NCBI GenBank assembly: GCA_934045905.1
Contig: OW203762.1
Coordinates: forward strand, 124,001-188,000
Origin: Leuctra nigra
Taxonomy: Eukaryota > Arthropoda > Insecta > Plecoptera > Leuctridae
Length of the DNA stretch: 64,000 nucleotides
Direction: 5' to 3'
Shown in pieces: positions 31,961 through 64,000 of the stretch. The notes beneath the pieces were generated by a model, which was given only the letters and a program-made list of their open reading frames with translations, made no database searches and was not told where the DNA came from. The position numbers and the translations under genes are program-made. The number at the start of each line of letters is the position of its first letter. The stretch's first letter is position 1.

Positions 31961-33328
31961 ACTAGTCAGCATGCCCGCGCACTAGTCAGCATGCTCGCGC
32001 ACTAGTCAGCATGCCCGCGCACTAGTCAGCATGCCCGCGCCCTTGTCGGCATGCCCGCGCACTAGTCAGCATGCTCGCGCACTAGTCAGCATGCCCGCGC
32101 ACTAGTCAGCATGCCCGCGCCCTTGTCGGCATGCCCGCGCACTAGTCAGCATGCCCGCGCACTAGTCGGCATGCCCGCGCACTTGTCGGCATGCCCGCGC
32201 ACTAGTCGGCATGCCCGCGCACTAGTCGGCATGCCCGCGCACTAGTCGGCATGCCCGCGCCCTTGTCGGCATGCCCGCGCACTAGTCAGCATGCTCGCGC
32301 ACTAGTCAGCATGCCCGCGCACTAGTCAGCATGCTCGCGCACTAGTCAGCATGCCCGCGCACTAGTCAGCATGCCCGCGCGCTAGTCGGCATGCCCGCGC
32401 GCTAGTCGGCATGCCCGCGCACTAGTCAGCATGCCCGCGCGCTAGTCGGCATGCCCGCGCACTAGTCAGCATACTCGCGCACTAGTCAGCATGCCCGCGC
32501 ACTAGTCAGCATGCCCGCGCCTTAGTCGGCATGCCCGCGCGCCAGTCGGCATGCTCGCGCACTAGTCAGCATGCCCGCGCACTAGTCAGCATGCCCGCGC
32601 CCTAGTCGGCATGCCCGCGCACTAGTCGGCATGCCCGCGCCCTAGTCGGCATGCTCGCGCACTAGTCAGCATGCCCGCGCCCTAGTCGGCATGCCCGCGC
32701 GCTAGTCGGCATGCCCGCGCCCTAGTCGGCATGCCCGCGCGCTAGTCGGCATGCCCGCGCACTAGTCAGCATGCCCGCGCACTAGTCAGCATGCCCGCGC
32801 ACTAGTCGGCATGCCCGCGCACTAGTCGGCATGCCCGCGCCCTAGTCGGCATGCTCGCGCACTAGTCAGCATGCCCGCGCCCTAGTCGGCATGCCCGCGC
32901 ACTAGTCGGCATGCCCGCGCCCTTGTCGGCATGCCCGCGCACTAGTCAGCATGCCCGCGCCCTAGTCGGCATGCCCGCGCACTAGTCGGCATGCCCGCGC
33001 ACTAGTCGGCATGCCCGCGCACTAGTCGGCATGCTCGCGCACTAGTCAGCATGCCCGCGCGCTAGTCGGCATGCTCGCGCACTAGTCAGCATGCCCGCGC
33101 CCTAGTCGGCATGCCCGCGCACTAGTCGGCATGCCCGCGCCCTTGTCGGCATGCCCGCGCCCTAGTCAGCATGCCCGCGCCCTAGTCGGCATGCCCGCGC
33201 ACTAGTCGGCATGCCCGCGCACTAGTCGGCATGCCCGCGCACTAGTCGGCATGCCCGCGCACTAGTCGGCATGCCCGCGCCCTAGTCGGCATGCTCGCGC
33301 ACTAGTCAGCATGCCCGCGCGCTAGTCA
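31961..33328. repeat. 20-bp GC-rich minisatellite, 68 phased copies
   Basis: The consensus actagtcagcatgcccgcgc repeats 68 times with no insertion or deletion, plus a partial unit ('gctagtca') at the end. Variation is almost confined to four positions: base 1 (a/c/g), base 4 (a/t), base 8 (a/g) and base 15 (c/t). Each unit contains the palindrome gcatgc and a cgcgc tract, giving a dense CpG island in an A/T-rich setting. Confidence 0.97.
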
Positions 33329-39778: not shown

Positions 39779-39787
39779 GTGACTTAC

Positions 39788-40118
39788 AAAGGCGGTGTAT
39801 TTGAGACCTGGCTTGAAGAACTCCGAGGTCTTGACAAGTTCCATGGCGTACTTGTGTTTGTGTAGCGTCATGTCGGCGGTGTTGTTCTGACGCCGTCCAG
39901 TCAGCGCCTCCTCAACGGCCACCTCGAAGCGGACCGAGCGCTCGAACTCGTCAGTCAGCTGCAGCTCGCGCAGGATGTCGAACTCCACCACAGCCTTGCC
40001 GTCGATAGGAACCACTTTCCGCACAGGAGTCCGGAAGATCGGCTGCAGAACTTCCGAGTAGTAGGTCGGGTAGGCGGTGACTGTCGCCTCTCCCCTCACT
40101 GCCTTGCCGTACGTGTAC
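39788..40118 (-). CDS. A2M/TEP/CD109-like gene, downstream exon (MG3 domain)
   Basis: A 331-bp exon on the minus strand. The acceptor is 'gatgcag|gtacac' (exon begins at 40118) and the donor is 'gccttt|gtaagt' (exon ends at 39788). It enters one base short of a codon (phase 2) and gives 110 full codons: YTYGKAVRGEATVTA..., then PIFRTPVRKVVPIDGKAVVEF, RSVRFEVAVEEALTGR, and FKPGLKYTAF. These are hallmarks of a macroglobulin MG3 domain running toward MG4 in the alpha-2-macroglobulin/thioester family of secreted or GPI-linked protease-trapping and immune proteins. Joining to the exon at 58221 restores ...IHA-K-YTYGK without a gap. No further exon is visible in the 39.7 kb downstream, so the next intron is very long. 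The exact subfamily (TEP, CD109 or Mcr) is not settled; Mcr- or CD109-like is my impression. Confidence 0.85.
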
Positions 40119-43100
40119 CTGCATCATATCACATTGTACATGACTTCCGAGTAGTAGGTCGGGAAGGCGGTGACTGTCGCCTCTCCTCTCACTGCCTTGT
40201 TGTACGTGTACCTGCATCATATCACATTGTACAGCACTTCCGAGTAGTAGGTCGGGTAGGCGGTGACTGTCGCCTCTCCTCTCACTGCCTTGCCGTATGT
40301 GTACCTGCATCATATCACATTGTACAGCACTTCCGAGTAGTAGGTCGGGTAGGCGGTGACTGTCGCCTCTCCTCTCACTGTGTTGCTGTACGTGTACCTG
40401 CATCATATCACATTGTACAGCACTTCCGAGTAGTAGGTCGGGTAGGCGGTGACTGTCGCCTCTCCTCTCACTGCCTTGCTGTACGTGTACCTGCATCATA
40501 TCACATTGTACAAGACTTCCGAGTAGTAGGTCGGGTAGGCGGTGACTGTCGCCTCTCCTCTCACTGCCTTGCTGTTCGTGTACCTGCATCATATCACATT
40601 GTACAGCACTTCCGAGTAGTAGGTCGGGTAGGCGGTGACTGTCGCCTCTCCTCTCACTGCCTTGCTGTTCGTGTACCTGCATCATATCACATTGTACAGG
40701 ACTTCCGAGTAGTAGGTCGGGTAGGCGGTGACTGTCGCCTCTCCTCTCACTGCCTTGCTGTACGTGTACCTGCATCATATCACATTGTACAGCACTTCCG
40801 AGTAGTAGGTCGGGTAGGCGGTGACTGTCGCCTCTCCTCTCACTGCCTTGCTGTTCGTGTACCTGCATCATATCACATTGTACAGCACTTCCGAGTAGTA
40901 GGTCGGGTAGGCGGTGACTGTCGCCTCTCCTCTCACTGCCTTGCTGTTCGTGTACCTGCATCATATCACATTGTACAGGACTTCCGAGTAGTAGGTCGGG
41001 TAGGCGGTGACTGTCGCCTCTCCTCTCACTGCCTTGCAGTACGTGTACCTGCATCATATCACATTGTACAGCACTTCCGAGTAGTAGGTCGGGTAGGCGG
41101 TGACTGTCGCCTCTCCTCTCACTGCCTTGCTGTACGTGTACCTGCATCATATCACATTGTACAGCACTTCCGAGTAGTAGGTCGGGTAGGCGGTGACTGT
41201 CGCCTCTCCTCTCACTGCCTTGCTGTACGTGTACCTGCATCATATCACATTGTACAGCACTTCCGAGTAGTAGGTCGGGTAGGCGGTGACTGTCGCCTCT
41301 CCTCTCACTGCCTTGCAGTACGTGTACCTGCATCATATCACATTGTACAGGACTTCCGAGTAGTAGGTCGGGTAGGCGGTGACTGTCGCCTCTCCTCTCA
41401 CTGCCTTGCTGTACGTGTACCTGCATCATATCACATTGTACTGGACTTCCGAGTAGTAGGTCGGGTAGGCGGTGACTGTCGCCTCTGGTCTCACTGCCTT
41501 GCTGTACGTGTACCTGCATCATATCACATTGTACTGGACTTCCGAGTAGTAGGTCGGGTAGGCGGTGACTGTCGCCTCTCCTCTCACTGCCTTGCTGTAC
41601 GTGTACCTGCATCATATCACATTGTACTGGACTTCCGAGTAGTAGGTCGGGTAGGCGGTGACTGTCGCCTCTCCTCTCACTGCCTTGCTGTACGTGTACC
41701 TGCATCATATCACATTGTACAGCACTTCCGAGTAGTAGGTCGGGTAGGCGGTGACTGTCGCCTCTCTTCTCACTGCCTTGCTGTACGTGTACCTGCATCA
41801 TATCACATTGTACAGGACTTCCGAGTAGTAGGTCGGGTAGGCGGTGACTGTCGCCTCTCCTCTCACTGCCTTGCTGTACGTGTACCTGCATCATATCACA
41901 TTGTACAGCACTTCCGAGTAGTAGGTCGGGTAGGCGGTGACTGTCGCCTCTCCTCTCACTGCCTTGCTGTACGTGTACTTGCATCATATCACATTGTACA
42001 GGACTTCCGAGTAGTAGGTCGGGTAGGCGGTGACTGTCGCCTCTCGTCTCACTGCCTTGCTGTACGTGTACCTGCATCATATCACATTGTACAGGACTTC
42101 CGAGTAGTAGGTCGGGTAGGCGGTGACTGTCGCCTCTCCTCTCACTGCCTTGCTGTTCGTGTACCTGCATCATATCACATTGTACAGGACTTCCGAGTAG
42201 TAGGTCGGGTAGGCGGTGACTGTCGCCTCTCCTCTCACTGCCTTGCCGTACGTGTACCTGCATCATATCACATTGTACAGGACTTCCGAGTAGTAGGTCG
42301 GGTAGGCGGTGACTGTCGCCTCTCCTCTCACTGCCTTGCTGTACGTGTACCTGCATCATATCACATTGTACATGACTTCCGAGTAGTAGGTCGGGTAGGC
42401 GGTGACTGTCGCCTCTCCTCTCACTGCCTTGCTGTACGTGTACCTGCATCATATCACATTGTACAGGACTTCCGAGTAGTAGGTCGGGTAGGCGGTGACT
42501 GTCGCCTCTCCTCTCACTGCCTTGCTGTACGTGTACCTGCATCATATCACATTGTACTTGACTTCCGAGTAGTAGGTCGGGTAGGCGGTGACTGTCGCCT
42601 CTCCTCTCACTGCCTTGCTGTACGTGTACCTGCATCATATCACATTGTACAGGACTTCCGAGTAGTAGGTCGGGTAGGCGGTGACTGTCGCCTCTCCTCT
42701 CACTGCCTTGCTGTACGTGTACCTGCATCATATCACATTGTACAGCACTTCCGAGTAGTAGGTCGGGTAGGCGGTGACTGTCGCCTCTCCTCTCACTGCC
42801 TTGCTGTACGTGTACCTGCATCATATCACATTGTACAGCACTTCCGAGTAGTAGGTCGGGTAGGCGGTGACTGTCGCCTCTCCTCTCACTGCCTTGCTGT
42901 ACGTGTACCTGCATCATATCACATTGTACAGCACTTCCGAGTAGTAGGTCGGGTAGGCGGTGACTGTCGCCTCTCCTCTCACTGCCTTGCCGTACGTGTA
43001 CCTGCATCATATCACATTGTACAGGACTTCCGAGTAGTAGGTCGGGTAGGCGGTGACTGTCGCCTCTCCTCTCACTGCTCTGCTGTTCGTGTACCTGCAT

Positions 43101-46100
43101 CATATCACATTGTACAGCACTTCCGAGTAGTAGGTCGGGTAGGCGGTGACTGTCGCCTCTCGTCTCACTGCCTTGCTGTACGTGTACCTGCATCATATCA
43201 CATTGTACAGCACTTCCGAGTAGTAGGTCGGGTAGGCGGTGACTGTCGCTTTTGCTCTCACTGCCTTGCTGTACGTGTACCTGCATCATATCACATTGTA
43301 CAGCACTTCCGAAGAGTAGGTCGGGTAGGCGGTGACTGTCGCCTCTCCTCTCACTGCCTTGCCATACGTGTACCTGCATCATATCACATTGTACAGGACT
43401 TCCGAGTAGTAGGTCGGGTAGGCGGTGACTGTCGCCTCTCCTCTCACTGCCTTGCCGTACGTGTACCTGCATCATATCACATTGTACAGCACTTCCGAGT
43501 AGTAGGTCGGGTAGGCGGTGACTGTCGCCTCTCCTCTCACTGCCTTGCTGTACGTGTACCTGCATCATATCACATTGTACAGCACTTCCGAGTAGTAGGT
43601 CGGGTAGGCGGTTACTGTCGCCTCTCGTCTCACTGCCTTGCTGTACGTGTTCCTGCATCATATCACATTGTACAGGACTTCCGAGTAGTAGGTCGGGTAG
43701 GCGGTTACTGTCGCCTCTCGTCTCACTGCCTTGCTGTACGTGTTCCTGCATCATATCACATTGTACAGGACTTCCGAGTAGTAGGTCGGGTAGGCGGTGA
43801 CTGTCGCCTCTCGTCTCACTGCCTTGCTGTACGTGTACCTGCATCATATCACATTGTACTGGACTTCCGAGTAGTAGGTCGGGTAGGCGGTGACTGTCGC
43901 CTCTCCTCTCACTGCCTTGCCGTACGTGTACCTGCATCATATCACATTGTACTGGACTTCCGAGTAGTAGGTCGGGTAGGCGGTGACTGTCGCCTCTCCT
44001 CTCACTGCCTTGCTGTTCGTGTACCTGCATCATATCACATTGTACATGACTTCCGAGTAGTAGGTCGGGTAGGCGGTGACTGTCGCCTCTCCTCTCACTG
44101 CCTTGCTGTACGTGTACCTGCATCATATCACATTGTACAGCACTTCCGAGTAGTAGGTCGAGTAGGCGGTGACTGTCGCCTCTCCTCTCACTGCCTTGCT
44201 GTACGTGTACCTGCATCATATCACATTGTACATGACTTCCGAGTAGTAGGTCGGGTAGGCGGTGACTGTCGCCTCTCCTCTCACTGCCTTGCTGTACGTG
44301 TACCTGCATCATATCACATTGTACAGGACTTCCGAGTAGTAGGTCGGGTAGGCGGTGACTGTCGCCTCTCCTCTCACTGCCTTGCTGTTCGTGTACCTGC
44401 ATCATATCACATTGTACAGGACTTCCGAGTAGTAGGTCGGGTAGGCGGTGACTGTCGCCTCTCCTCTCACTGCCTTGCCGTACGTGTACCTGCATCATAT
44501 CACATTGTACAGGACTTCCGAGTAGTAGGTCGGGTAGATGGTGACTGTCGCCTCTCCTCTCACTGCCTTGCTGTTCGTGTACCTGCATCATATCACATTG
44601 TACATGACTTCCGAGTAGTAGGTCGGGTAGGCGGTGACTGTCGCCTCTCCTCTTACTGCCTTGCCGTACGTGTACCTGCATCATATCACATTGTACAGGA
44701 CTTCCGAGTAGTAGGTCGGGTAGGCGGTGACTGTCGCCTCTCCTCTCACTGCCTTGCTGTACGTGTACCTGCATCATATCACATTGTACTGGACTTCCGA
44801 GTAGTAGGTCGGGTAGGCGGTGACTGTCGCCTCTCCTCTCACTGCCTTGCCGTACGTGTACCTGCATCATATCACATTGTACTGGACTTCCGAGTAGTAG
44901 GTCAGGTAGGCGGTGACTGTCGCCTCTCCTCTCACTGCCTTGCTGTTCGTGTACCTGCATCATATCACATTGTACATGACTTCCGAGTAGTAGGTCGGGT
45001 AGGCGGTGACTGTCGCCTCTCCTCTCACTGCCTTGCTGTACGTGTACCTGCATCATATCACATTGTACAGCACTTCCGAGTAGTAGGTCGAGTAGGCGGT
45101 GACTGTCGCCTCTCCTCTCACTGCCTTGCTGTACGTGTACCTGCATCATATCACATTGTACATGACTTCCGAGTAGTAGGTCGGGTAGGCGGTGACTGTC
45201 GCCTCTCCTCTCACTGCCTTGCTGTACGTGTACCTGCATCATATCACATTGTACAGGACTTCCGAGTAGTAGGTCGGGTAGGCGGTGACTGTCGCCTCTC
45301 CTCTCACTGCCTTGCTGTTCGTGTACCTGCATCATATCACATTGTACAGGACTTCCGAGTAGTAGGTCGGGTAGGCGGTGACTGTCGCCTCTCCTCTCAC
45401 TGCCTTGCCGTACGTGTACCTGCATCATATCACATTGTACAGGACTTCCGAGTAGTAGGTCGGGTAGATGGTGACTGTCGCCTCTCCTCTCACTGCCTTG
45501 CTGTTCGTGTACCTGCATCATATCACATTGTACATGACTTCCGAGTAGTAGGTCGGGTAGGCGGTGACTGTCGCCTCTCCTCTTACTGCCTTGCCGTACG
45601 TGTACCTGCATCATATCACATTGTACAGGACTTCCGAGTAGTAGGTCGGGTAGGCGGTGACTGTCGCCTCTCCTCTCACTGCCTTGCTGTACGTGTACCT
45701 GCATCATATCACATTGTACATGACTTCCGAGTAGTAGGTCGGGTAGGCGGTGACTGTCGCCTCTCCTCTCACTGCCTTTATGTACGTGTTCCTGCATCAT
45801 ATCACATTGTACAGGACTTCCGAGTAGTAGGTCGGGTAGGCGGTGACTGTCGCCTCTTCTCTCACTGCCTTGCCGTACGTGTACCTGCATCATATCACAT
45901 TGTACAGGACTTCCGAGTAGTAGGTCGGGTAGGCGGTGACTGTCGCCTCTCCTCTCACTGCCTTGCCGTACGTGTACCTGCATCATATCACATTGTACTG
46001 GACTTCCGAGTTGTAGGTCGGGTAGGCGGTGACTGTCGCCTCTCCTCTCACTGCCTTGCTGTACGTGTACCTGCATCATATCACGTTGTACAGGACTTCC

Positions 46101-49100
46101 GAGTAGTAGGTCGGGTAGGCGGTGACTGTCGCCTCTCCTCTCACTGCCTTGCTGTACGTGTACCTGCATCATATCATATTGTACAGGACTTCCGAGTAGT
46201 AGGTCGGGTAGGCGGTGACTGTCGCCTCTCCTCTCACTGCCTTGCTGTTCGTGTACCTGCATCATATCACATTGTACTGGACTTCCGAGTAGTAGGTCAG
46301 GTAGGCGGTGACTGTCGCCTCTCCTCTCACTGCCTTGCCGTACGTGTACCTGCATTATATCACATTGTACAGCACTTCCGAGTAGTAGGTCGGGTAGGCG
46401 GTGACTGTCGCCTCTCCTCTCACTGCCTTGCTATACGTGTACCTGCATCATATCACATTGTACAGCACTTCCGAGTAGTAGGTCGTGTAGGCGGTGACTG
46501 TCGCCTTTCCTCTCACTGCCTTGCTGTTCGTGTACCTGCATCATATCACATTGTACAGGACTTGCGAGTAGTAGGTCGGGTAGGCGGTGACTGTCGCCTC
46601 TCCTCTCACTGCCTTGCCATACGTGTACCTGCATCATATCACATTGTACAGCACTTCCGAGTAGTAGGTCGGGTAGGCGGTGACTGTCGCCTCTCCTCTC
46701 ACTGCCTTGCCATACGTGTACCTGCATCATATCACATTGTACAGCACTTCCGAGAAGTAGGTCGGGTAGGCGGTGACTGTCGCCTCTCCTCTCACTGCGT
46801 TGCTGTACGTGTACCTGCATCATATCACATTGTACAGGACTTCCGAGTAGTAGGTCGGGTAGGCGGTGACTGTCGCCTCTCCTCTCACTGCCTTGCTGTT
46901 CGTGTACCTGCATCATATCACATTGTACATGACTTCCGAGTAGTAGGTCGGGTAGGCGGTGACTGTCGCCTCTCCTCTCACTGCCTTGCCATACGGGTAC
47001 CTGCATCATATCACATTGTACAGCACTTCCGAGTAGTAGGTCGGGTAGGCGGTGACTGTCGCCTCTCCTCTCACTGCCTTGCCGTACGTGTACCTGCATC
47101 ATATCACATTGTACAGCACTTCCGAGTAGTAGGTCGGGTAGGCAGTGACTGTCGCCTCTCCTCTCACTGCATTGCTGTACGTGTACCTGCATCATATCAC
47201 ATTGTACAGCACTTCCGAGTAGTAGGTCGGGTAGGCGGTGACTGTCGCCTCTCCTCTCACTGCCTTGCTGTACGTGTACCTGCATCATATCACATTGTAC
47301 ATGACTTCCGAGTAGTAGGTCGGGTAGGCGGTGACTGTCGCCTCTCCTCTCACTGCCTTGCAGTACGTGTACCTGCATCATATCACATTGTACAGCACTT
47401 CCGAGTAGTAGGTCGGGTAGGCAGTGACTGTCGCTTCTCCTCTCACTGCCTTGCTGTACGTGTACCTGCATCATATCACATTGTACAGCACTTCCGAGTA
47501 GTAGGTCGGGTAGGCGGTGACTGTCGCCTCACCTCTCATTGCCTTGCTGTTCGTGTACCTGCATCATATCACATTGTACAGCACTTCCGAGTAGTAGGTC
47601 GGGTAGGCGGTGACTGTCGCCTCTCCTCTCACTGCCTTGCCATACGTGTACCTGCATCATATCACATTGTACAGCACTTCCGAGTAGTTGGTCGGGTAGG
47701 CGGTGACTGTCGCCTCTCCTCTCACTGCATTGCTGTACGTGTACCTGCATCATATCACATTGTACAGCACTTCCGAGTAGTAGGTCGGGTAGGCGGTGAC
47801 TGTCGCCTCTCCTCTCACTGCCTTGCTGTACGTGTACCTGCATCATATCACATTGTACATGACTTCCGAGTAGTAGGTCGGGTAGGCGGTGACTGTCGCC
47901 TCTCCTCTCACTGCCTTGCCATACGTGTACCTGCATCATATCACATTGTACAGCACTTCCGAGTAGTAGGTCGGGTAGGCGGTGACTGTCGCCTCTCCTC
48001 TCACTGCGTTGCTGTACGTGTACCTGCATCATATCACATTGTACAGCACTTCCGAGTAGTAGGTCGGGTAGGCGGTGACTGTCGCCTCTCCCCTCACTGC
48101 CTTGTTGTACGTGTACCTGCATCATATCACATTGTACAGGACTTCCGAGTAGTAGGTCGGGTAGGCGGTGACTGTCGCCTCTCCTCTCACTGCCTTGCCG
48201 TACGTGTACCTGCATCATATCACATTGTACATGACTTCCGAGTAGTAGGTCGGGTAGGCGGTGACTGTCGCCTCTCCTCTCACTGAATTGCTGTACGTGT
48301 ACCTGCATCATATCACATTGTACATGACTTCCGAGTAGTAGGTCGGGTAGGCGGTGACTGTCGCCTCTCCTCTCACTGCCTTGCCGTACGTGTACCTGCA
48401 TCATATCACATTGTACTGGACTTCCGAGTAGTAGGTCGGGTAGGCGGTGACTGTCGCCTCTCCTCTCACTGCCTTGCTGTTCGTGTACCTGCATCATATC
48501 ACATTGTACAGGACTTCCGAGTAGTAGGTCGGGTAGGCGGTGACTGTCGCCTCTCGTCTCACTGCCTTGCTGTACGTGTACCTGCATCATATCACATTGT
48601 ACAGGACTTCCGAGTAGTAGGTCGGGTAGGCGGTGACTGTCGCCTCTCCTCTCACTGCCTTGCTGTACGTGTACCTGCATCATATCACATTGTACAGCAC
48701 TTCCAAGTAGTAGGTCGGGTAGGCGGTGACTGTCGCTTCTCCTCTCACTGCCTTGCTGTACGTGTACCTGCATCATATCACATTGTACAGCACTTCCGAG
48801 TAGTAGGTCGGGTAGGCGGTGACTGTCGCCTCTCCTCTCATTGCCTTGCTGTACGTGTACCTGCATCATATCACATTGTACAGCACTTTCGAGTAGTAGG
48901 TCGGGTAGGCGGTGACTGTCGCCTCTCCTCTCACTGCCTTGCCGTACGTGTACCTGCATCATATCACATTGTACAGGACTACCGAGTAGTAGGTCGGGTA
49001 GGCGGTGACTGTCGCCTCTCCTCTCACTGCCTTGCTGTACGTGTACCTGCATCATATCACATTGTACAGCACTTCCGAGTAGTAGGTCGGGTAGGCGGTG

Positions 49101-52100
49101 ACTGTCGCTTTTGCTCTCACTGCCTTGCTGTACGTGTACCTGCATCATATCACATTGTACAGCACTTCCGAGTTGTAGGTCGGGTAGGCGGTGACTGTAG
49201 TCCTCTCCGCTCACTGCCTTGCTGTAGGTGTTCCTGCATCATATCACATTGTACAGCACTTCCGAGTAGTAGGTCGGGTAGGCGGTGACTGTCGCCTCTC
49301 CTCTCACTGCCTTGCTGTACGTGTACCTGCATCATATCACATTGTACAGGACTTCCGAGTAGTAGGTCGTGTAGGCGGTGACTGTCGCCTCTCCTCTCAC
49401 TGCCTTGCTGTACGTGTACCTGCATCATATCACATTGTACATGACTTCCGAGTAGTAGATCGGGTAGGCGGTGACTGTCGCCTCTCCTCTCACTGCCTTG
49501 CTGTACGTGTTCCTGCATCATATCACTTCGTACAGGACATCCGAGTAGTAGGTCGGGTAGGCGGTGACTGTCGCCTCTCCTCTCACTGCCTTGCCGTACG
49601 TGTACCTGCATCATATCACATTGTACATGACTTCCGAGTAGTAGGTCGGGTAGGCGGTGACTGTCGCCTCTCCTCTCACTGAATTGCTGTACGTGTACCT
49701 GCATCATATCACATTGTACATGACTTCCGAGTAGTAGGTCGGGTAGGCGGTGACTGTCGCCTCTCCTCTCACTGCCTTGCCGTACGTGTACCTGCATCAT
49801 ATCACATTGTACTGGACTTCCGAGTAGTAGGTCGGGTAGGCGGTGACTGTCGCCTCTCCTCTCACTGCCTTGCTGTTCGTGTACCTGCATCATATCACAT
49901 TGTACAGGACTTCCGAGTAGTAGGTCGGGTAGGCGGTGACTGTCGCCTCTCCTCTCACTGCCTTGCTGTACGTGTACCTGCATCATATCACATTGTACAT
50001 GACTTCCGAGTAGTAGGTCGGGTAGGCGGTGACTGTCGCCTCTCCTTTCACTGCCTTGCTGTACGTGTTCTTGCATCATATCACATTGTACAGGACATCC
50101 GAGTAGTAGGTCGGGTAGGCGGTGACTGTCGCCTCTCCTCTCACTGCCTTGCCGTACGTGTAACTGCATCATATCACATTGTACTGGACTTCCGAGTAGT
50201 AGGTCGGGTAGGCGGTGACTTTCGCCTCTCCTCTCACTGCCTTGCTGTTCGTGTACCTGCATCATATCACATTGTACAGGACTTCCGAGTAGTAGGTCGG
50301 GTAGGCGGTGACTGTCGCCTCTCCTCTCACTGCCTTGCTGTTCGTGTACCTGCATCATATCACATTGTACAGGACTTCCGAGTAGAAGGTCGGGTAGGCG
50401 GTGACTGTCGCCTCTCCTCTCACTGCCTTGCTGTTCGTGAACCTGCATCATATCACATTGTACAGGACTTCCGAGTAGTAGGTCGGGTAGGCGGTGACTG
50501 CCGCCTCTCCTCTCACTGCCTTGCTGTACGTGTACCTGCATCATATCACATTGTACAGCACTTCCGAGTAGTGGGTCGGGTAGGCAGTGACTGTCGCCTC
50601 TCCTCTCACTGCCTTGCCGTACGTGTACCTGCATCATATCACATTGTACTGGACTTCCGAGTAGTAGGTCGGGTAGGCGGTGACTGTCGCCTCTCCTCTC
50701 ACTGCCTTGCTGTTCGTGTACCTGCATCATATCACATTGTACAGGACTTCCGAGTAGTAGGTCGGGTAGGCGGTGACTGTCGCCTCTCCTCTCACTGCCT
50801 TGCTGTTCGTGTACCTGCATCATATCACATTGTACAGGACTTCCGAGTAGTAGGTCGGGTAGGCGGTGACTGTCGCCTCTCCTCTCACTGCCTTGCTGTT
50901 CGTGAACCTGCATCATATCACATTGTACAGGAATTCCGAGTAGTAGGTCGGGTAGGCGGTGACTGTCGCCTCTCCTCTCACTGCCTTGCAGTACGTGTAC
51001 CTGCATCATATCACATTGTACAGCACTTCCGAGTAGTAGGTCGGGTAGGCGGTGACTGTCGCCTCTCCTCTCACTGCCTTGCTGTACGTGTACCTGCATC
51101 ATATCACATTGTACAGCACTTCCGAGTAGTGGGTCGGGTAGGCGGTGACTGTCGCCTCTCCTCTCACTGCCTTGCCGTACGTGTACCTGCATCATATCAC
51201 ATTGTACATGACTTCCGAGTAGTAGGTCGGGTAGGCGGTCACTGTCGCCTCTCCTCTCACTGCCTTGCTGTACGTGTACCTGCATCATATCACATTGTAC
51301 AGGACTTCCGAGTAGTAGGTAGTGTAGGCGGTGACTGTCGCCTCTCCTCTCACTGCCTTGCAGTACGTGTACCTGCATCATATCACATTGTACAGCACTT
51401 CCGAGTAGTAGGTCGGGTAGGCAGTGACTGTCGCCTCTCCTCTCACTGCATTGCTGTACGTGTACCTGCATCATATCACATTGTACAGCACTTCCGAGTA
51501 GTAGGTCGGGTAGGCGGTGACTGTCGCCTCTCCTCTCACTGCCTTGCTGTACGTGTTCCTGCATCATATCACATTGTACAGGACTTCCGAGTAGTAGGTC
51601 GGGTAGGCGGTGACTGTCGCTTCTCCTCTCACTGCCTTGCTGTACGTGTACCTGCATCATATCACATTGTACAGCACTTCCGAGTAGTAGGTCGGGTAGG
51701 CGGTGACTGTCGCCTCTCCTCTCACTGCCTTGCTGTACGTGTACCTGCATCATATCACATTGTACAGCACTTCCGAGTAGTAGGTCGGGTAGGCGGTGAC
51801 TGTCGCCTCTCCTCTCACTGCCTTGCCGTACGTGTACCTGCATCATATCACATTGTACATGACTTCCGAGTAGTAGGTCGGGTAGGCGGTCACTGTCGCC
51901 TCTCCTCTCACTGCCTTGCTGTACGTGTACCTGCATCATATCACATTGTACAGGACTTCCGAGTAGTAGGTCGGGTAGGCGGTGACTGTCGCCTCTCCTC
52001 TCACTGCCTTGCTGTACGTGTACCTGCATCATATCACATTGTACAGCACTTCCGAGTAGTAGGTCGGGTAGGCGGTGACTGTCGCCTCTCCTCTCATTGC

Positions 52101-55100
52101 CTTGCTGTACGTGTACCTGCTTCATATCACATTGTACAGCACTTTCGAGTAGTAGGTCGGGTAGGCGGTGACTGTCGCCTCTCCTCTCACTGCCTTGCCG
52201 TACGTGTACCTGCATCATATCACATTGTACAGGACTTCCGAGTAGTAGGTCGGGTAGGCGGTGACTGTCGCCTCTCCTCTCACTGCCTTGCTGTACGTGT
52301 ACCTGCATCATATCACATTGTACAGCGCTTCCGAGTAGTAGGTCGGGTAGGCGGTGACTGTCGCCTCTCCTCTCACTGCCTTGCTGTACGTGTACCTGCA
52401 TCATATCACATTGTACAGCACTTCCGAGTTGTAGGTCGGGTAGGCGGTGACTGTCGCCTCTCCTCTCACTGCCTTGCTGTACGTGTTCCTGCATCATATC
52501 ACATTGTACAGCACTTCCGAGTAGTAGGTCGGGTAGGCGGTGACTGTCGCCTCTCCTCTCACTGCCTTGCTGTACGTGTACCTGCATCATATCACATTGT
52601 ACAGGACTTCCGAGTAGTAGGTCGTGTAGGCGGTGACTGTCGCCTCTCCTCTCACTGCCTTGCTGTACGTGTACCTGCATCATATCACATTGTACATGAC
52701 TTCCGAGTAGTAGGTCGGGTAGGCGGTGACTGTCGCCTCTCCTTTCACTGCCTTGCTGTACGTGTTCTTGCATCATATCACATTGTACAGGACATCCGAG
52801 TAGTAGGTCGGGTAGGCGGTGACTGTCGCCTCTCCTCTCACTGCCTTGCCGTACGTGTACCTGCATCATATCACATTGTACTGGACTTCCGAGTAGTAGG
52901 TCGGGTAGGCGGTGACTGTCGCCTCTCCTCTCACTGCCTTGCTGTACGTGTACCTGCATCATATCACATTGTACAGGACTTCCGAGTAGTAGGTCGGGTA
53001 GGCGGTGACTGTCGCCTCTCCTCTCACTGCCTTGCTGTACGTGTACCTGCATCATATCACATTGTACAGCACTTCCGAGTAGTAGGTCGGGTAGGCGGGG
53101 ACTGTCGCCTCTCCTCTCACTGCCTTGCTGTTCGTGTACCTGCATCATATCACATTGTACAGGACTTCCGAGTAGTAGGTCGGGTAGGCGGTGACTGTCG
53201 CCTCTCCTCTCACTGCCTTGCTGTTCGTGTACCTGCATCATATCACATTGTACAGGACTTCCGAGTAGTAGGTCGGGTAGGCGGTGACTGTCGCCTCTCC
53301 TCTCACTGCCTTGCTGTTCGTGAACCTGCATCATATCACATTGTACAGGACTTCCGAGTGGTAGGTCGGGTAGGCGGTGACTGTCGCCTCTCCTCTCACT
53401 GCCTTGCAGTACGTGTACCTGCATCATATCACATTGTACAGCACTTCCGAGTAGTAGGTCGGGTAGGCGGTGACTGCCGCCTCTCCTCTCACTGCCTTGC
53501 CGTACGTGTACCTGCATCATATCACATTGTACAGCACTTCCGAGTAGTGGGTCGGGTAGGCGGTGACTGTCGCCTCTCCTCTCACTGCCTTGCCGTACGT
53601 GTACCTGCATCATATCACATTTTACATGACTTCCGAGTAGTAGGTCGGGTAGGCGGTCACTGTCGCCTCTCCTCTCACTGCCTTGCTGTACGTGTACCTG
53701 CATCATATCACATTGTACAGGACTTCCGAGTAGTAGGTCGGGTAGGCGGTGACTGTCGCCTCTCCTCTCACTGCCTTGCAGTACGTGTACCTGCATCATA
53801 TCACATTGTACAGCACTTCCGAGTAGTAGGTCGGGTAGGCGGTGACTGTCGCCTCTCCTCTCACTGCATTGCTGTACGTGTACCTGCATCATATCAATTG
53901 TACAGCACTTCCGAGTAGTAGGTCGGGTAGGCGGTGACTGTCGCCTCTCCTCTCACTGCCTTGCTGTACGTGTTCCTGCATCATATCACATTGTACAGGA
54001 CTTCCGAGTAGTAGGTCGGGTAGGCGGTGACTGTCGCTTCTCCTCTCACTGCCTTGCTGTACGTGTACCTGCATCATATCACATTGTACAGCACTTCCGA
54101 GTAGTAGGTCAAGTAGGCGGTGACTGTCGCCTCTCCTCTCACTGCCTTGCTGTACGTGTACCTGCATCATATCACATTGTACAGCACTTCCGAGTAGTAG
54201 GTCGGGTAGGCGGTGACTGTCGCCTCTCCTCTCACTGCCTTGCCGTACGTGTACCTGCATCATATCACATTGTACATGACTTCCGAGTAGTAGGTCGGGT
54301 AGGCGGTCACTGTCGCCTCTCCTCTCACTGCCTTGCTGTACGTGTACCTGCATCATATCACATTGTACAGGACTTCCGAGTAGTAGGTCGGGTAGGCGGT
54401 GACTGTCGCCTCTCCTCTCACTGCCTTGCTGTACGTGTACCTGCATCATATCACATTGTACAGCACTTCCGAGTAGTAGGTCGGGTAGGCGGTGACTGTC
54501 GCCTCTCCTCTCATTGCCTTGCTGTACGTGTACCTGCATCATATCACATTGTACAGCACTTCCGAGTAGTAGGTCGGGTAGGCGGTGACTGTCGCCTCTC
54601 CTCTCACTGCCTTGCCGTACGTGTACCTGCATCATATCACATTGTACGTGACTTCCGAGTAGTAGGTCGGGTAGGCGGTGACTGTCGCCTCTCCTCTCAC
54701 TGCCTTGCTGTACGTGTACCTGCATCATATCACATTGTACAGCACTTCCGAGTAGTAGGTCGGGTAGGCGGTGACTGTCGCCTCTCCTCTCACTGCCTTG
54801 CTGTACGTGTACCTGCATCATATCACATTGTACAGCACTTCCGAGTAGTAGGTCGGGTAGGCGGTGACTGTCGCCTCTCCTCTCACTGCCTTGCTGTACG
54901 TGTACCTGCATCATATCACATTGTACAGGACTTCCGAGTAGTAGGTCGGGTAGGCGGTGACTGTCGCCTCTCCTCTCACTGCCTTGCCATACGTGTACCT
55001 GCATCATATCACATTGTACAGGACTTCCGAGTAGTAGGTCGGGTAGGCGGTGACTGTCGCCTCTCCTCTCACTGCCTTGCTGTTCGTGTACCTGCATCAT

Positions 55101-58100
55101 ATCACATTGTACAGCACTTCCGAGTAGTAGGTCGGGTAGGCGGTGACTGTCGCCTCTCCTCTCACTGCCTTGCCGTACGTGTACCTGCATCATATCACAT
55201 TGTACAGCACTTCCGAGTAGTAGGTCGGGTAGGCGGTGACTGTCGCCTCTCCTATCACTGCCTTGCTGTTCGTGTACCTGCATCATATCACATTGTACAG
55301 CACTTCCGAGTAGTAGGTCGGGTAGGCGGTGACTGTCGCCTCTCCTCTCACTGCCTTGCTGTACGTGTACCTGCATCATATCACATTGTACAGGACTTCC
55401 GAGTAGTAGGTCGGGTAGGCGGTGACTGTCGCCTTTCCTCTCACTGCCTTGCCGTACGTGTACCTGCATCATATCACATTGTACTGGACTTCCGAGTAGT
55501 AGGTCGGGTAGGCGGTGACTGTCGCCTCTCCTCTCACTGCCTTGCCGTACGTGTACCTGCATCATATCACATTGTACAGGACTTCCGAGTAGAAGGTCGG
55601 GTAGGCGGTGACTGTCGCCTCTCCTCTCACTGCCTTGCCGTACGTGTACCTGCATCATATCACATTGTACATGACTTCCGAGTAGTAGGTCGGGTAGGCG
55701 GTGACTGTCGCCTCTCCTCTCACTGCCTTGCCGTACGTGTACCTGCATCATATCACATTGTACAGGACTTCCGAGTAGTAGGTCGGGTAGGCGGTGACTG
55801 TCGCCTCTCCTCTCACTGCCTTGCTGTTCGTGTACCTGCATCATATCACATTGTACAGGACTTCCGTGTAGTAGGTCGGGTAGGCGGTGACTGTCGCCTC
55901 TCGTCTTACTGCCTTGCTGTACGTGTACCTGCATTATATCACATTTTACATGACTTCCGAGTTGTAGGTCGGGTAGGCGGTGACTGTCGCCTCTCATCTT
56001 ACTGCCTTGCCGTACGTGTACCTGCATCATATCACATTGTACAGCACTTCCGAGTAGTAGGTCGGGTAGGCGGTGACTGTCGCCTCTCCTCTCACTGCCT
56101 TGCTGTTCGTGTACCTGCATCATATCACATTGTACAGGACTTCCGTGTAGTAGGTCGGGTAGGCGGTGACTGTCGCCTCTCCTCTCACTGCCTTGCCGTA
56201 CGTGTACCTGCATCATATCCACATTGTACATGACTTCCGAGTAGTAGGTCGGGTAGCCGGTGACTGTCGCCTCTCATCCTACTGCCTTGCCGTACGTGTA
56301 CCTGCATCATATCACATTGTACAGCACTTCCGAGTAGTAGGTCGGGTAGGCGGTGACTGTCGCCTCTCGTCTCACTGCCTTGCTGTACGTGTTCCTGCAT
56401 CATATCACATTGTACAGCACTTCCGAGTAGTAGGTCGGGTAGGCGGTGACTGTCGCCTCTCCTCTCACTGCCTTGCTGTACGTGTACCTGCATCATATCA
56501 CATTGTACAGGACTTCCGAGTAGTAGGTCGGGTAGGCGGTGACTGTCGCCTCTCCTCTCACTGCCTTGCTGTACGTGTACCTGCATCATATCACATTGTA
56601 CAGGACTTCCGAGTAGTAGGTCGGGTAGGCGGTGACTGTCGCCTCTCGTCTCACTGCCTTGCTGTACGTGTACCTGCATCATATCACATTGTACAGCACT
56701 TCCGAGTAGTAGGTCGGGTAGGCGGTGACTGTCGCCTCTCCTCTCACTGCCTTGCTGTACGTGTACCTGCATCATATCACATTGTACAGCACTTCCGAGT
56801 AGTAGGTCGGGTAGGCGGTGACTGTCGCCTCTCCACTCACTGCCTTGCTGTACGTGTACCTGCATCATATCACATTGTACAGGACTTCCGAGTAGTAGGT
56901 CGGGTAGGCGGTGACTGTCGCCTCTCCTCTCACTGCCTTGCTGTACGTGTTCCTGCATCATATCACATTGTACAGGACATCCGAGTAGTAGGTCGGGTAG
57001 GCGGTGACTGTCGCCTCTCCTCTCACTGCCTTGCCGTACGTGTACCTGCATTATATCACATTGTACTTGACTTCCGAGTAGTAGGTCGGGTAGGCGGTGA
57101 CTGTCGCCTCTCCTCTCACTGCCTTGCTGTTCGTGTACCTGCATCATATCACATTGTACAGGACTTCCGAGTAGTAGGTCGGGTAGGCGGTGACTGTCGC
57201 CTCTCCTCTCACTGCCTTGCTGTTCGTGTACCTGCATCATATCACATTGTACAGGACTTCCGAGTAGTAGGTCGGGTAGGCGGTGACTGTCGCCTCTCCT
57301 CTCACTGCCTTGCTGTTCGTGTACCTGCATCATATCACATTGTACAGGACTTCCGAGTAGTAGGTCGGGTAGGCGGTGACTGTCGCCTCTCCTCTCACTG
57401 CCTTGCAGTACGTGTACCTGCATCATATCACATTGTACAGCACTTCCGAGTAGTAGGTCGGGTAGGCGGTGACTGTCGCCTCTCCTCTCACTGCATTGCT
57501 GTACGTGTACGTGCATCATATCACATTGTACAGCACTTCCGAGTAGTAGGTCGGGTAGGCGGTGACTGTCGCCTCTCCTCTCACTGCCTTGCTGTTCGTG
57601 TACCTGCATCATATCACATTGTACAGGACTTCCGAGTAGTAGGTCGGGTAGGCGGTGACTGTCGCCTCTCCTTTCACTGCCTTGCTGTTCGTGTACCTGC
57701 ATCATATCACATTGTACAGGACTTCCGAGTAGTAGGTCGGGTAGGCGGTGACTGTCGCCTCTCCTCTCACTGCCTTGCAGTACGTGTACCTTCTTCATAT
57801 CACATTGTACAGCACTTCCGAGTAGTAGGTCGGGTAGGCGGTGACTGTCGCCTCTCCTCTCACTGCCTTGCTGTACGTGTACCTGCATCATATCACATTG
57901 TACAGGACTTCCGAGTAGTAGGTCGGGTAGGCGGTGACTGTCGCCTCTCCTCTCACTGCCTTGCTGTTCGTGTACCTGCATCATATCACATTGTACAGGA
58001 CTTCCGAGTAGTAGGTCGGGTAGGCGGTGACTGTCGCCTCTCCTCTCACTGCCTTGCTGTACGTGTACCTGCATCATATCACATTGTACAGGACTTCCGA

Positions 58101-58186
58101 GTAGTAGGTCGGGTAGGCGGTGACTGTCGCCTCTCCTCTCACTGCATTGCTGTACGTGTACCTGCATCATATCACATTGTACAGGA
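40050..58186 (-). repeat. 93-bp tandem array, 195 copies of a duplicated splice acceptor and exon start
   Basis: Unit starts ('acttccgag' on the plus strand) run from 40050 to 58093, a distance of 194 x 93 + 1. Three 1-bp indels explain the remainder (insertions near 49200 and 56219, a deletion near 53895). On the minus strand each unit is ~24 bp of intron end ('tgatatgatgcag') followed by ~69 bp of the A2M exon start. Substitutions concentrate at a few sites (tac/ttc/cat before the 'gtacctgcat' block, and the 2-3 bases before 'acttcc'). The array fills nearly the whole intron. Long ORFs on both strands arise because 93 is divisible by 3. Confidence 0.97.
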
Positions 58187-58220
58187 CGTGGCATGGCATG
58201 TATCATGGCATTTTACTCAC

Positions 58221-58471
58221 TTGGCATGTATCGTGGCGACCACGTGTGAGTCCTTGAATGTGGCATGTTTGGGAACGGCAATGGACACTTGGAACTTGGG
58301 CAAAACGTATTCGGCGACTTGGATTGTCTTGGAGTAGATCTGGTCGAGCAGAGAGACGGTGAGGTTCCACGCCCCGAGCACAGGTTGCGCTGCCAGCTGG
58401 AACTCCCCCTCGAACACGCCGCGGGTAGCCAGGGCGCGGTTCCACGCCTTTACGCGGTTGCCAGCACCATC
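58221..58471 (-). CDS. A2M/TEP/CD109-like gene, upstream exon (MG2 end, MG3 start)
   Basis: A 251-bp exon on the minus strand between acceptor 'ttttccgcag|gatgg' and donor 'gccaa|gtgagt'. It encodes 83 codons plus two bases: DGAGNRVKAWNRALATRGVF..., LGAWNLTVSLLD, VAEYVLPKFQVSIAVP, VVATIHA. The G-x-W-x-L-T-V and EYVLPKFxV motifs are the signature of the MG2-MG3 boundary in alpha-2-macroglobulin/thioester proteins. The leftover 'aa' joins the 'g' of the exon at 40118 to make Lys, giving continuous family-like sequence. Exons for the signal peptide and MG1 must lie beyond 64000. The gene is interrupted, not truncated: both splice sites are good. Confidence 0.87.
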
Positions 58472-60649: not shown

Positions 60650-63600
60650 ATCATGTCAATAAATGTGATTGAACTGAACTCACGGCTATGTGTAGATGTC
60701 AATAAATGTGATTGAACAGAACTCACAAATGTGATTGAACAGAACTCACGGCTATGTGTAAATGTCAATAAATGTGTATTGAACTGAACTCACGGCTATG
60801 TGTAGATGTCAATGAATGTGTATTGAACTGAACTCACGGCTATATAGATGTCAATGAATGTGTATTGAACTGAACTCACGGCTATATAGATGTCAATGAA
60901 TGTGTATTTTACTGAACTCACGGCTATGTGTATAGATGTCAATGAATGTGTATTGAACTGAACTCACGTCTATATAGATGTCAATGAATGTGTATTTAAC
61001 TGAACTCACGGCTATGTGTATAGATGTCAATGAATGTGTATTGAACTGAACTCACGTCTATATAGATGTCAATGAATGTTTTTTGAACTGAACTCACGGC
61101 TATGTAGATGTCAATGAATGTGATTGAACAAAACACACGGCTATGTAGATGTCAATGAAAGTGAATTGAACTGAACTCACGGCTATGTAGATGTCAATGA
61201 ATGTGAATGAACAGAACTCACGGCTATGTGTAGATGTCAATATATGTATAATGAACTGAACTCACGGCTATATGTTGATGTCAATGAATGTGTGTTGAAC
61301 TGAACTCACGGCTATGTAGATGTCAGTAAATGTGCATTGAACTGAACTCACGGCTATGTAGATGTCAATGAATGTAATTGAACTGAACGCACGGCTATGT
61401 AGATGTCAATGAATGTGTATTGAACTGAACTCACGGCTATGTAGATGTCAATGAATGTAATTGAACTGAACGCACGGCTATGTAGATGTCAATGAATGTG
61501 TATTGAACTGAACTCACGGCTATGAAGATGTCAATGAATGTGTATTGAACTGAACTCACGGCTATGTAGATGTCAATGAATGTGTAATTAACTGAACTCA
61601 CGGCTATATAGATGTCAATGAATGCGTATTGAACTGAACTCAAGGCTATATAGATGATAATGAATGTGTATTAAACTGAACTCACGGCTATGTAGATGTA
61701 AATGTATGTGTATTGAAATAAACTTACGCTATGTAGATGTCAATGAATGTGTATTGAACTGAACTCACGGCTATGTGAAGACGTCAATAAATGTGTATAT
61801 AACTGAACTCACGGCTATGTAGATGTCAATTAATGTGTGTTGAACTGAACTCACGGCTATGTGTAGATGTTAATGAATGTGTAATGAACTGAACTCACGG
61901 CTATGTAGATGTTAATGAATGTGTATTGAACTGAACTCACGGCTATGTAGATGTCAATGAATGTGTATTAAACTGAACTCACGGCTATGTAGATGTCAAT
62001 GAATGTGTATTGAACTAAACTCACGGCTATGTAGATGTCAATGAATGTGTATAAAACTAAACCCACGGCTATGTTGATGTCAATGAATGTGTATTGAACA
62101 GAACTCACGGCTATGTAGATGTCAATGAATGTGTATTGAACTGAACTCACGGCTATGTGTAGATGTCAATGAATGTGTATTGAACTAAACTCACGGCTAT
62201 GTAGATGTAAATGAATGTGTATTAAACTGAACTCACGGCTATATAGATGTCAATGAATGTGTATTGAACTAAACTCACGGCTATGTGTAGATGTCAATAA
62301 ATGTGTATTGAACTGAACTCACGGCTATATAGTTATCAATAAATGTGTATTGAACGGAACTCACGGCTATGTGTAGATGTCAATGAATGTGTATTAAACT
62401 GAACTCACGGCTATGTAGATGTCAATGAATGTGTATTGAACTAAACTCACGGCTAAGTAGATGTCAATGAACGTGTTTTGAACTGAACTCACGCTATGTA
62501 GATGTCAATGAATGTGTAATGAACTGAACACACGGCTATATAGTTATCAATGAATGTGTATTGAACTGAACTCACGCTATGTAGATGTCAATGAATGTGT
62601 ATTGAACGGAACTCACGGCTATGTGTAGATGTCAATGAATGTGTATTAAACTGAACTCACGGCTATGTAGATGTCAATGAATGTGTATTGAACTAAACTC
62701 ACGGCTAAGTAGATGTCAATGAACGTGTATTGAACTGAACTCACGGCTTTGTAGATATCAGTGAATGTGTATTGAACTGAACTCACGGCTATGTGTAGAT
62801 GTCAATGAATTTGTAATGAAATAAACTCACGGCTATGTAGATGTCAATGAATGTGTATTGAACTAAACTCACGGCTAAGTAGATGTCAATGAACGTGTAT
62901 TGAACTGAACTCACGGCTATGTGTAGATGCCAATGAATGTGTGTTGAACTGAACTCACGGCTATGTAGATGTCAATGAATGTGTATTTAACTGAACTCAC
63001 GGCTATGCGTAGATTTCAATGAATGTGTATTGAACTGAACTCACGGCTTTGTAGATGTCAATGAATGTGTATTGAACTGAACTCACGGCTATGTAGATGT
63101 CAATGAATTTGTATTGAACTGAACTCACGGCTATGTAGATGTCAATAAATGTGTAATGAACTGAACTCACGCTATGTAGATGTCAATGAATGTGTATTGA
63201 ACGGAACTCACGGCTATGTGTAGATGTCAATGAATGTGTATTAAACTGAACTCACGGCTATGTAGATGTCAATGAATGTGTATTGAACTAAACTCACGGC
63301 TAAGTAGATGTCAATGAACGTGTATTGAACTGAACTCACGCTATGTAGATGTCAATGAATGTGTAATGAACTGAACACACGGCTATATAGTTATCAATGA
63401 ATGTGTATTGAACTGAACTCACGCTATGTAGATGTCAATGAATGTGTATTGAACGGAACTCACGGCTATGTGTAGATGTCAATGAATGTGTATTAAACTG
63501 AACTCACGGCTATGTAGATGTCAATGAATGTGTATTGAACTAAACTCACGGCTAAGTAGATGTCAATGAACGTGTATTGAACTGAACTCACGGCTTTGTA

Positions 63601-64000
63601 GATATCAGTGAATGTGTATTGAACTGAACTCACGGCTATGTGTAGATGTCAATGAATTTGTAATGAACTAAACTCACGGCTATGTAGATGTCAATGAATG
63701 TGTATTGAACTAAACTCACGGCTAAGTAGATGTCAATGAACGTGTATTGAACTGAACTCACGGCTATGTGTAGATGCCAATGAATGTGTGTTGAACTGAA
63801 CTCACGGCTATGTAGATGTCAATGAATGTGTATTTAACTGAACTCACGGCTATGCGTAGATTTCAATGAATGTGTATTGAACTGAACTCACGGCTTTGTA
63901 GATGTCAATGAATGTGTATTGAACTGAACTCACGGCTATGTAGATGTCAATGAATGTGTATTGAACTGAACTCACGGCTATGTAGATGTCAATAAATGTG
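60650..64000. repeat. ~42-bp A/T-rich minisatellite, about 79 copies, open at window end
   Basis: Unit core: 'gatgtcaatgaatgtg', 'tattgaactgaactcacgg', 'ctatgta'. The modal length is 42 bp, with variants from 'tatgtgta' insertions and single-base losses. The array becomes regular after about 60720. Marker variants repeat 847 bp apart (62751/63598 and 63001/63848), showing a higher-order repeat. ORFs reading (IDIYIAVSSVQYTF)n on the minus strand are by-products of the 42-bp period. Confidence 0.95.

Follow-up and report, generated by a model that had tools for sequence, protein, structure and literature searches.

An 18-kb, 195-copy minisatellite over an intron-exon border of a CD109/TEP-like gene of Leuctra nigra resembles the mirages of lancelets

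Minisatellites that lie over exon-intron borders are known from lancelets under the name of mirages, in the globin genes BflGb6 and BflGb9 (PMC3087553) and further in Adh3, TnC and PGBD5 (PMC3902484). According to the accessible part of the globin report, the 3' end of an intron and the 5' part of an exon stand in tandem in BflGb6, in 3 or 6 copies of 150-160 bp, and in BflGb9 it is the 3' border of an exon that is present in tandem copies (PMC3087553). Many, though not all, of these copies keep the AG and GT signals, the repeats are described as subject to concerted evolution, and RT-PCR suggested that splicing was undisturbed (PMC3087553). In the available text of the second report, the Adh and TnC mirages are said to yield no aberrant mRNAs, and in PGBD5 a single gene has repeats of 60 and 108 bp that lie at, or extend over, both 5' and 3' splice sites (PMC3902484). 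Our literature search returned no mirage case outside lancelets and none in TEP genes, which is no proof of absence in print.

Two further systems are related in layout. The human genes UBC and VCX3A have dual-specific splice sites in tandem repeats, and AG/GT sites in human tandem repeats (the slash marks the junction here and below) can be used both ways, as stated in the part of the paper at hand (PMC10809524). In the potato RdRp gene, the portion of the source consulted describes the gain of an intron by tandem duplication across an intron-exon border (PMC4974935).

The stretch of DNA analysed here, called the window, comprises 64,000 nucleotides (C2:124001-188000 of a 536-Mb genome in 144 contigs) and is free of Ns; positions without a prefix are window positions. 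Tandem Repeats Finder reported, in this one assembly, an array at 40046-58187 with a period of 93, 195.1 copies and 96% matches, designated array D. The features around it are as follows.

39788..40118, minus strand: exon E4 (rest of MG3 and on), with donor TTT/GTAAGT at 39787, placed by the CD109 alignment
40046..58187, minus strand: array D, border-spanning, 195 copies of a 93-bp unit of 24 nt intron end with the acceptor and 69 nt exon start
58188..58220, minus strand: unique 5' part of the intron, 33 nt, with donor GTGAGT, read from the sequence
58221..58471, minus strand: exon E3 (end of MG2, start of MG3), the donor-giving exon, from sequence and Pfam
60661..64000, minus strand: the part of array C in the window; its rest, and exon E2, lie beyond, the array reaching C2:190084

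Unique sequence flanks array D at either end. Its minus strand presents 195 acceptor-like sites, the first at 58161 and the last at 40118, which are spaced by 93 nt in 191 of the 194 steps, by 94 in two and by 92 in one. The site at 40118 is the sole one that opens the real MG3 exon E4, whose first 69 nt are the final copy of the array; the exon after it encodes YTYGKAVRGEATVTAYPTYYSEVLQP... The donor of E3 at 58220 reads CAA/GTGAGT. Together, the 33 nt of unique intron and the first 26 nt of the array form an interval of 59 nt from this donor to the first acceptor, which is probably the ancestral intron. AG is present in 191 of the 195 sites, CAG in 190 and AG/GT in 180, and a donor-like GCAGTGAGA stands near the unit start in 175 of the 195 copies. 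The unit crosses an exon-intron border, and many, though not all, of the copies retain the splice signal, both as in the definition of a mirage minisatellite. By its sequence, array D would be classed as an extremely large mirage whose host gene has unusually many of them, and hence as an element of a kind already named. The anatomy put forward in the first-pass annotation, with one donor facing about 195 acceptors, only the last of which leads into the exon, and with a unit that joins the intron end to the exon start, was confirmed by Tandem Repeats Finder, by the site spacing and by the CD109 alignment.

Domain and structure matches place the host gene in the CD109/TEP/A2M family, of immune type. 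Mapping over 258 kb of the contig (C2:1-258000, window included) gave 13 exons of one minus-strand gene, from C2:31382 to 212881. A 12-exon composite, in which E6 is left out, scored above the Pfam cut-off for MG2, MG3, MG4, A2M_BRD, A2M and TED_complement; its best solved match was CD109 (5.7e-133), followed by thioester-containing protein 1 (5.9e-103), and the thioester motif GCGEQ is present. Taken alone, exon E3 reaches 28.9 bits for MG3 (cut-off 23.1) and 22.6 bits for MG2, which is below the cut-off of 32.8, and exon E4 reaches 21.2 bits for MG3, just below the cut-off of 23.1; in the composite both domains of E3 and the MG3 of E4 exceed their cut-offs. The join of E3 to the last array copy (ATIHAK/YTYGKAV) is free of gaps in the CD109 alignment. 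On C2:1-31400, a filtered ORF list, a motif search and an exon-by-exon family search, by which short exons can be overlooked, yielded neither the remainder of the thioester domain nor the C-terminal domains. On contig C4, A2M_recep matches were obtained for two exons, at 38.807 and 38.825 Mb, one of which matches TEP1 (5.3e-6), and a third exon (L034:7098), which is without a solved match, was called TEP by eye only. An A2M or TED match on C4 was absent from the search, and the N-terminal half of a TEP gene was not seen in the stretches fetched from C4:38786001-38825000. Because the C-terminal exons were not found on C2, the gene may be split or broken; these observations suggest that it is divided between C2 and C4 by the assembly, possibly by a mis-join, or that it is truly broken.

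The copies of array D are alike and at the same time diverse. The mean pairwise difference is 3.3 of 93 positions among the 191 full-length units (three of other length being left out), and 103 distinct unit types occur among 194 units. All 194 decoy acceptors read into a stop, 189 of them after 29 codons and the other five after 9 (twice), 25, 27 and 568 codons. The exonic variants of the decoys comprise 12 synonymous and 47 non-synonymous changes, with 24% synonymous expected (p = 0.65). The decoy copies are without coding selection, and their variants are codon-blind. These results disfavour the suggestion of the first-pass annotation that the array gives rise to exon-start inclusion variants, and the codon-blind variants lend support to another of its options, a neutral satellite born from coding DNA; array D is probably neutral. 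At one codon the consensus has AGC (Ser), with A in 138 of 191 units, G in 44 and T in 9, and the real exon E4 has GGC there, for the Gly of YTYGK as in CD109. Open frames run through the array because 93 is a multiple of three; a coding function of these frames was rejected, the frames being mechanical and the variants codon-blind. A masking of the decoys by RNA structure was likewise discarded, as the unit folds no better than its shuffles (z of -0.25 and -0.41; antisense -0.40). A search of the window against Rfam gave zero matches.

Five other borders of the same gene carry arrays, so that arrays straddle 6 of the 26 borders of the 13 mapped exons, at four acceptors and two donors. The first-pass annotation had treated array D as a single oddity and had missed both these arrays and the earlier naming of the kind as mirages in lancelets (PMC3087553, PMC3902484). 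The five arrays, one of which reaches into the window as listed above, are as follows.

C2:208649-212714: array A, 23-bp unit, end of exon E1 with its donor
C2:190265-190556: array B, 42-48 bp unit, start of exon E2
C2:184661-190084: array C, 42-bp unit, end of exon E2 with its donor
C2:89545-89781: array E, 23 to 27 bp unit, start of exon E5, with a related piece at 94366-96878
C2:31441-32904: array F, 89-bp unit, start of exon E12

These arrays have about 6 to 174 copies each. The unit of array C takes in the donor of exon E2 with the 15 exon nt before it (GACATCTACATAGCC/GTGAGT), in 127 fuzzy copies over the whole array, and the consensus of array F is identical to nt 1-81 of the real exon E12. 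The splice signal is kept in most copies of the long arrays (AGGT in 143 of 168 for array A, CCGT in 92 of 102 for array C, substitution-only copies) and in all copies of the short ones (6 of 6 in B, 16 of 16 in F). Among the 15 arrays of the gene body with a period of at least 10 and at least 4.5 copies, thresholds chosen after the arrays had been seen, six have a unit that covers one of the 26 borders, against 0.0725 expected at random (Poisson 1.9e-10); with the starting array D left out, the five remaining border arrays give a Poisson value of 1.6e-8. The far piece of array E was counted as a separate non-border array among the 15, and so was array G (13 bp x ~218, C2:37071-39884), which ends a few bases before the E9 acceptor, within 12 bp of the border, and was rejected as a border array because it adjoins the acceptor without containing it. 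The near and far parts of array E are separated by a stretch of ~4.6 kb (C2:89781-94366) whose ends are inverted copies (CTAGGAAAACGCTC...) and which probably derives from a transposon. Within this stretch, at C2:93473-93556, stands a further short fragment of the same repeat.

In exons of other loci that served as a control, no comparable pattern was seen. None of 20 exons of other TEP-family loci has an array (period of at least 8, at least 2.5 copies) within 60 bp, the exon edges in this control being domain-match or ORF edges, so that arrays slightly further out would be missed. Fisher's test on 6 of 26 host-gene borders against 0 of 40 control borders gives p = 0.0025, and p = 0.0046 without the three C4 exons, which possibly belong to the same gene. 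Similarly, a 4.4-kb stretch of one myosin gene contains 8 exons (8 of 93 myosin matches), all of them free of arrays within 60 bp; the closest array in that stretch ends 70 bp before an exon. With 0 of 28 control exons having a nearby array, arrays are therefore not evenly spread over the exons of this genome. Two candidates were set aside: a 30-bp array near a paralogue (L026:4946-5347) stands in an open frame unlike TEP sequence, probably that of a mobile element, and away from any TEP border, and a 31-bp two-copy repeat in L032 is not at an exon end. A search of the genome for MG2 yielded 0 of 3 candidates, probably because MG2 is split over exons. The myosin heavy chain gene (C1:19366964-19370357) has seven tandem alternative copies of one exon, and such tandem copies in myosin heavy chain are typical of arthropods.

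How could such an array have arisen? At its 5' edge the intron reads ...CCAC/GTCCTGTACAATG and at its 3' edge the exon reads ...CTCGGAA/GTTCTGCAGCC. The six bases past each edge differ at one place, being GTCCTG in the intron (starting 26 nt before the acceptor) and GTTCTG in the exon (exon nt 68-73), a likeness as would be expected of duplication between short homologies. We propose that a tandem duplication between these two hexamers copied the acceptor with the start of the MG3 exon, and that exchange between misaligned copies would then have expanded the array to about 195. Within the array, 8 consecutive units recur identically at a lag of 10 units, 4 at a lag of 26 and 3 at a lag of 15, and the repeated series look like block exchange. 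Carriers of shared rare variants lie closer together than random (median gap 28.5 versus 45.0, none of 500 shuffles falling below 31.7) and reappear at intervals that include 10, 26 and 29 units, the kind of offset at which misaligned exchange may have taken place. Units at the edges are no more diverged than those in the middle. The array would be tolerated because the entire exon is still joined directly to its exon-proximal copy. Donor 58220 would most likely be joined to the last acceptor by exon definition, since this acceptor is the only one to open a complete exon, whose donor, GTAAGT, follows after 331 nt. Intron definition or a first-come choice would favour a decoy and not the last copy, as the donor and the first acceptor frame the interval of 59 nt. 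Transcripts that used a decoy would meet a stop and may be removed by nonsense-mediated decay.

One process may have struck all six borders of the gene. The arrays would thus be largely neutral intron filler. We consider it likely that the account holds as a whole, namely that array D began as a satellite at a short homology, expanded by exchange, is tolerated and spliced at its last acceptor, and is largely neutral, as mirage-type filler of an intron. As to why borders are hit, one idea is that minisatellites arise readily in GC-rich sequence (the exons have 58.5% GC, the gene body 40.5%) and that duplications wholly within exons are lost to selection, so that the border-crossing ones remain. 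Against the part played by GC, array C (36.7%) and the far piece of array E (35.8%) are no richer than the gene body.

The stops behind every decoy also fit a splicing rheostat, in which decoys divert transcripts into stop-containing products and the length of the array sets the amount of TEP protein, and the minimal interval left by the first acceptor would make such diversion easier to envisage. The pattern of variation bears on this alternative. At the 24 sites of the intron part, 15 variant alleles occur versus 22.3 expected from exon-part rates with no site dropped (p = 0.07); for the final 12 intron nt of the unit the figures are 5 versus 11.1 (p = 0.035). Without the three most variable sites (unit 70-72), the intron part has 10 versus 18.2 (p = 0.03) or 19.3 (p = 0.016), and the acceptor core with its GT has 7 versus 12.3 (p = 0.08). 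The reduced variation close to the acceptor hints weakly, and in a test-dependent way, at constraint on the decoys and speaks against a purely neutral reading. However, the reduction, with p from 0.016 to 0.08, depends on the sites counted, chance would probably put a stop into the intronic part of the unit, and lancelet mirages are reported, in the text available, without disturbed splicing. We regard a rheostat as unlikely. An extension to the whole gene, in which the six border arrays act jointly as a length-dependent brake, seems quite unlikely to us: the right site would have to be found among 195 acceptors and among the copies at the five other borders, so that a fast-changing copy number, altered by unequal exchange, would set the protein output and vary between individuals.

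The AG/GT at most sites of array D could instead serve a stepwise removal of the intron, either as recursive or dual-specific sites or through micro-exons of 19 nt (from the acceptor to the in-unit donor GCA/GTGAGA) separated by introns of 74 nt. The frequency of AG/GT and of GCAGTGAGA is in its favour, as are the enrichment of dual-specific sites in human tandem repeats (PMC10809524) and the new spliced intron that a duplication of the same layout gave in potato (PMC4974935), both as given in the accessible portions of these papers. The sites themselves argue otherwise. Recursive and dual-specific splice sites have a strong pyrimidine tract and a good regenerated donor. Array D has the AG/GT, but only 7 of the 17 bases before CAG are pyrimidines, and the regenerated donor CAA/GTACAC and the in-unit GCA/GTGAGA each agree with the donor consensus at 5 of 9 positions in a count made by eye. 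One 19-nt exon would moreover shift the frame (three would not). Stepwise removal therefore appears very unlikely.

That the copy number is largely an artefact of assembly is highly improbable: arrays near read length are prone to a wrong copy number, and a gene possibly split over two contigs means that the assembly may have errors here, but the 103 unit types with variants ordered along the array, the unique flanks on both sides and five more arrays of the same nature speak against it.

The remainder of the window holds repeats of other kinds. Positions 1-28100 hold stacked open frames that, by eye, contain a reverse-transcriptase-like part and a C-terminal zinc-finger/endonuclease-like part. 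Several of these frames are joined at (AAT)n tracts and resemble R4/Dong-like non-LTR elements, which insert into TAA repeats. A GC-rich 20-bp minisatellite of 68 copies (31961-33327) lies in an intron, away from the mapped exons.

Array D offers a natural experiment, in which ~195 near-identical acceptors compete for one donor and the copy taken may be the first transcribed, the nearest or the one with a complete exon. Because this one gene has such arrays at donors (two) as well as at acceptors (four), the choice of splice sites can be asked about in both directions. The locus indicates that border-spanning minisatellites can far outgrow the lancelet examples described above and cluster in one gene, and such arrays may be a way for introns to lengthen or to arise anew.

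Compared with the known systems, to the extent that the consulted parts of the sources describe them, array D is closest to BflGb6, since both repeat the 3' end of an intron with the 5' part of an exon. It differs from the 3 or 6 copies of BflGb6 in its 195 copies over 18 kb and in the six affected borders of its host gene, for which lancelet PGBD5, with several borders hit in one gene, is a precedent (PMC3902484). Unaffected splicing and the length instability of Adh3 are reported traits of lancelet mirages; for array D the analysis covered the sequence of one assembly. Mirages have been reported from lancelets, and the host of array D is an arthropod. Like the human dual-specific repeats, array D has AG/GT within its repeat units; unlike the UBC repeats, which are protein-coding and variably spliced, nearly all of its decoys (189 of 194) stop after 29 codons. 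As in potato RdRp, where the parental acceptor and branch region were inherited, the 3' side of an intron and the 5' side of an exon were duplicated; there a single duplication became a new spliced intron, whereas array D has 195 copies without a known use.
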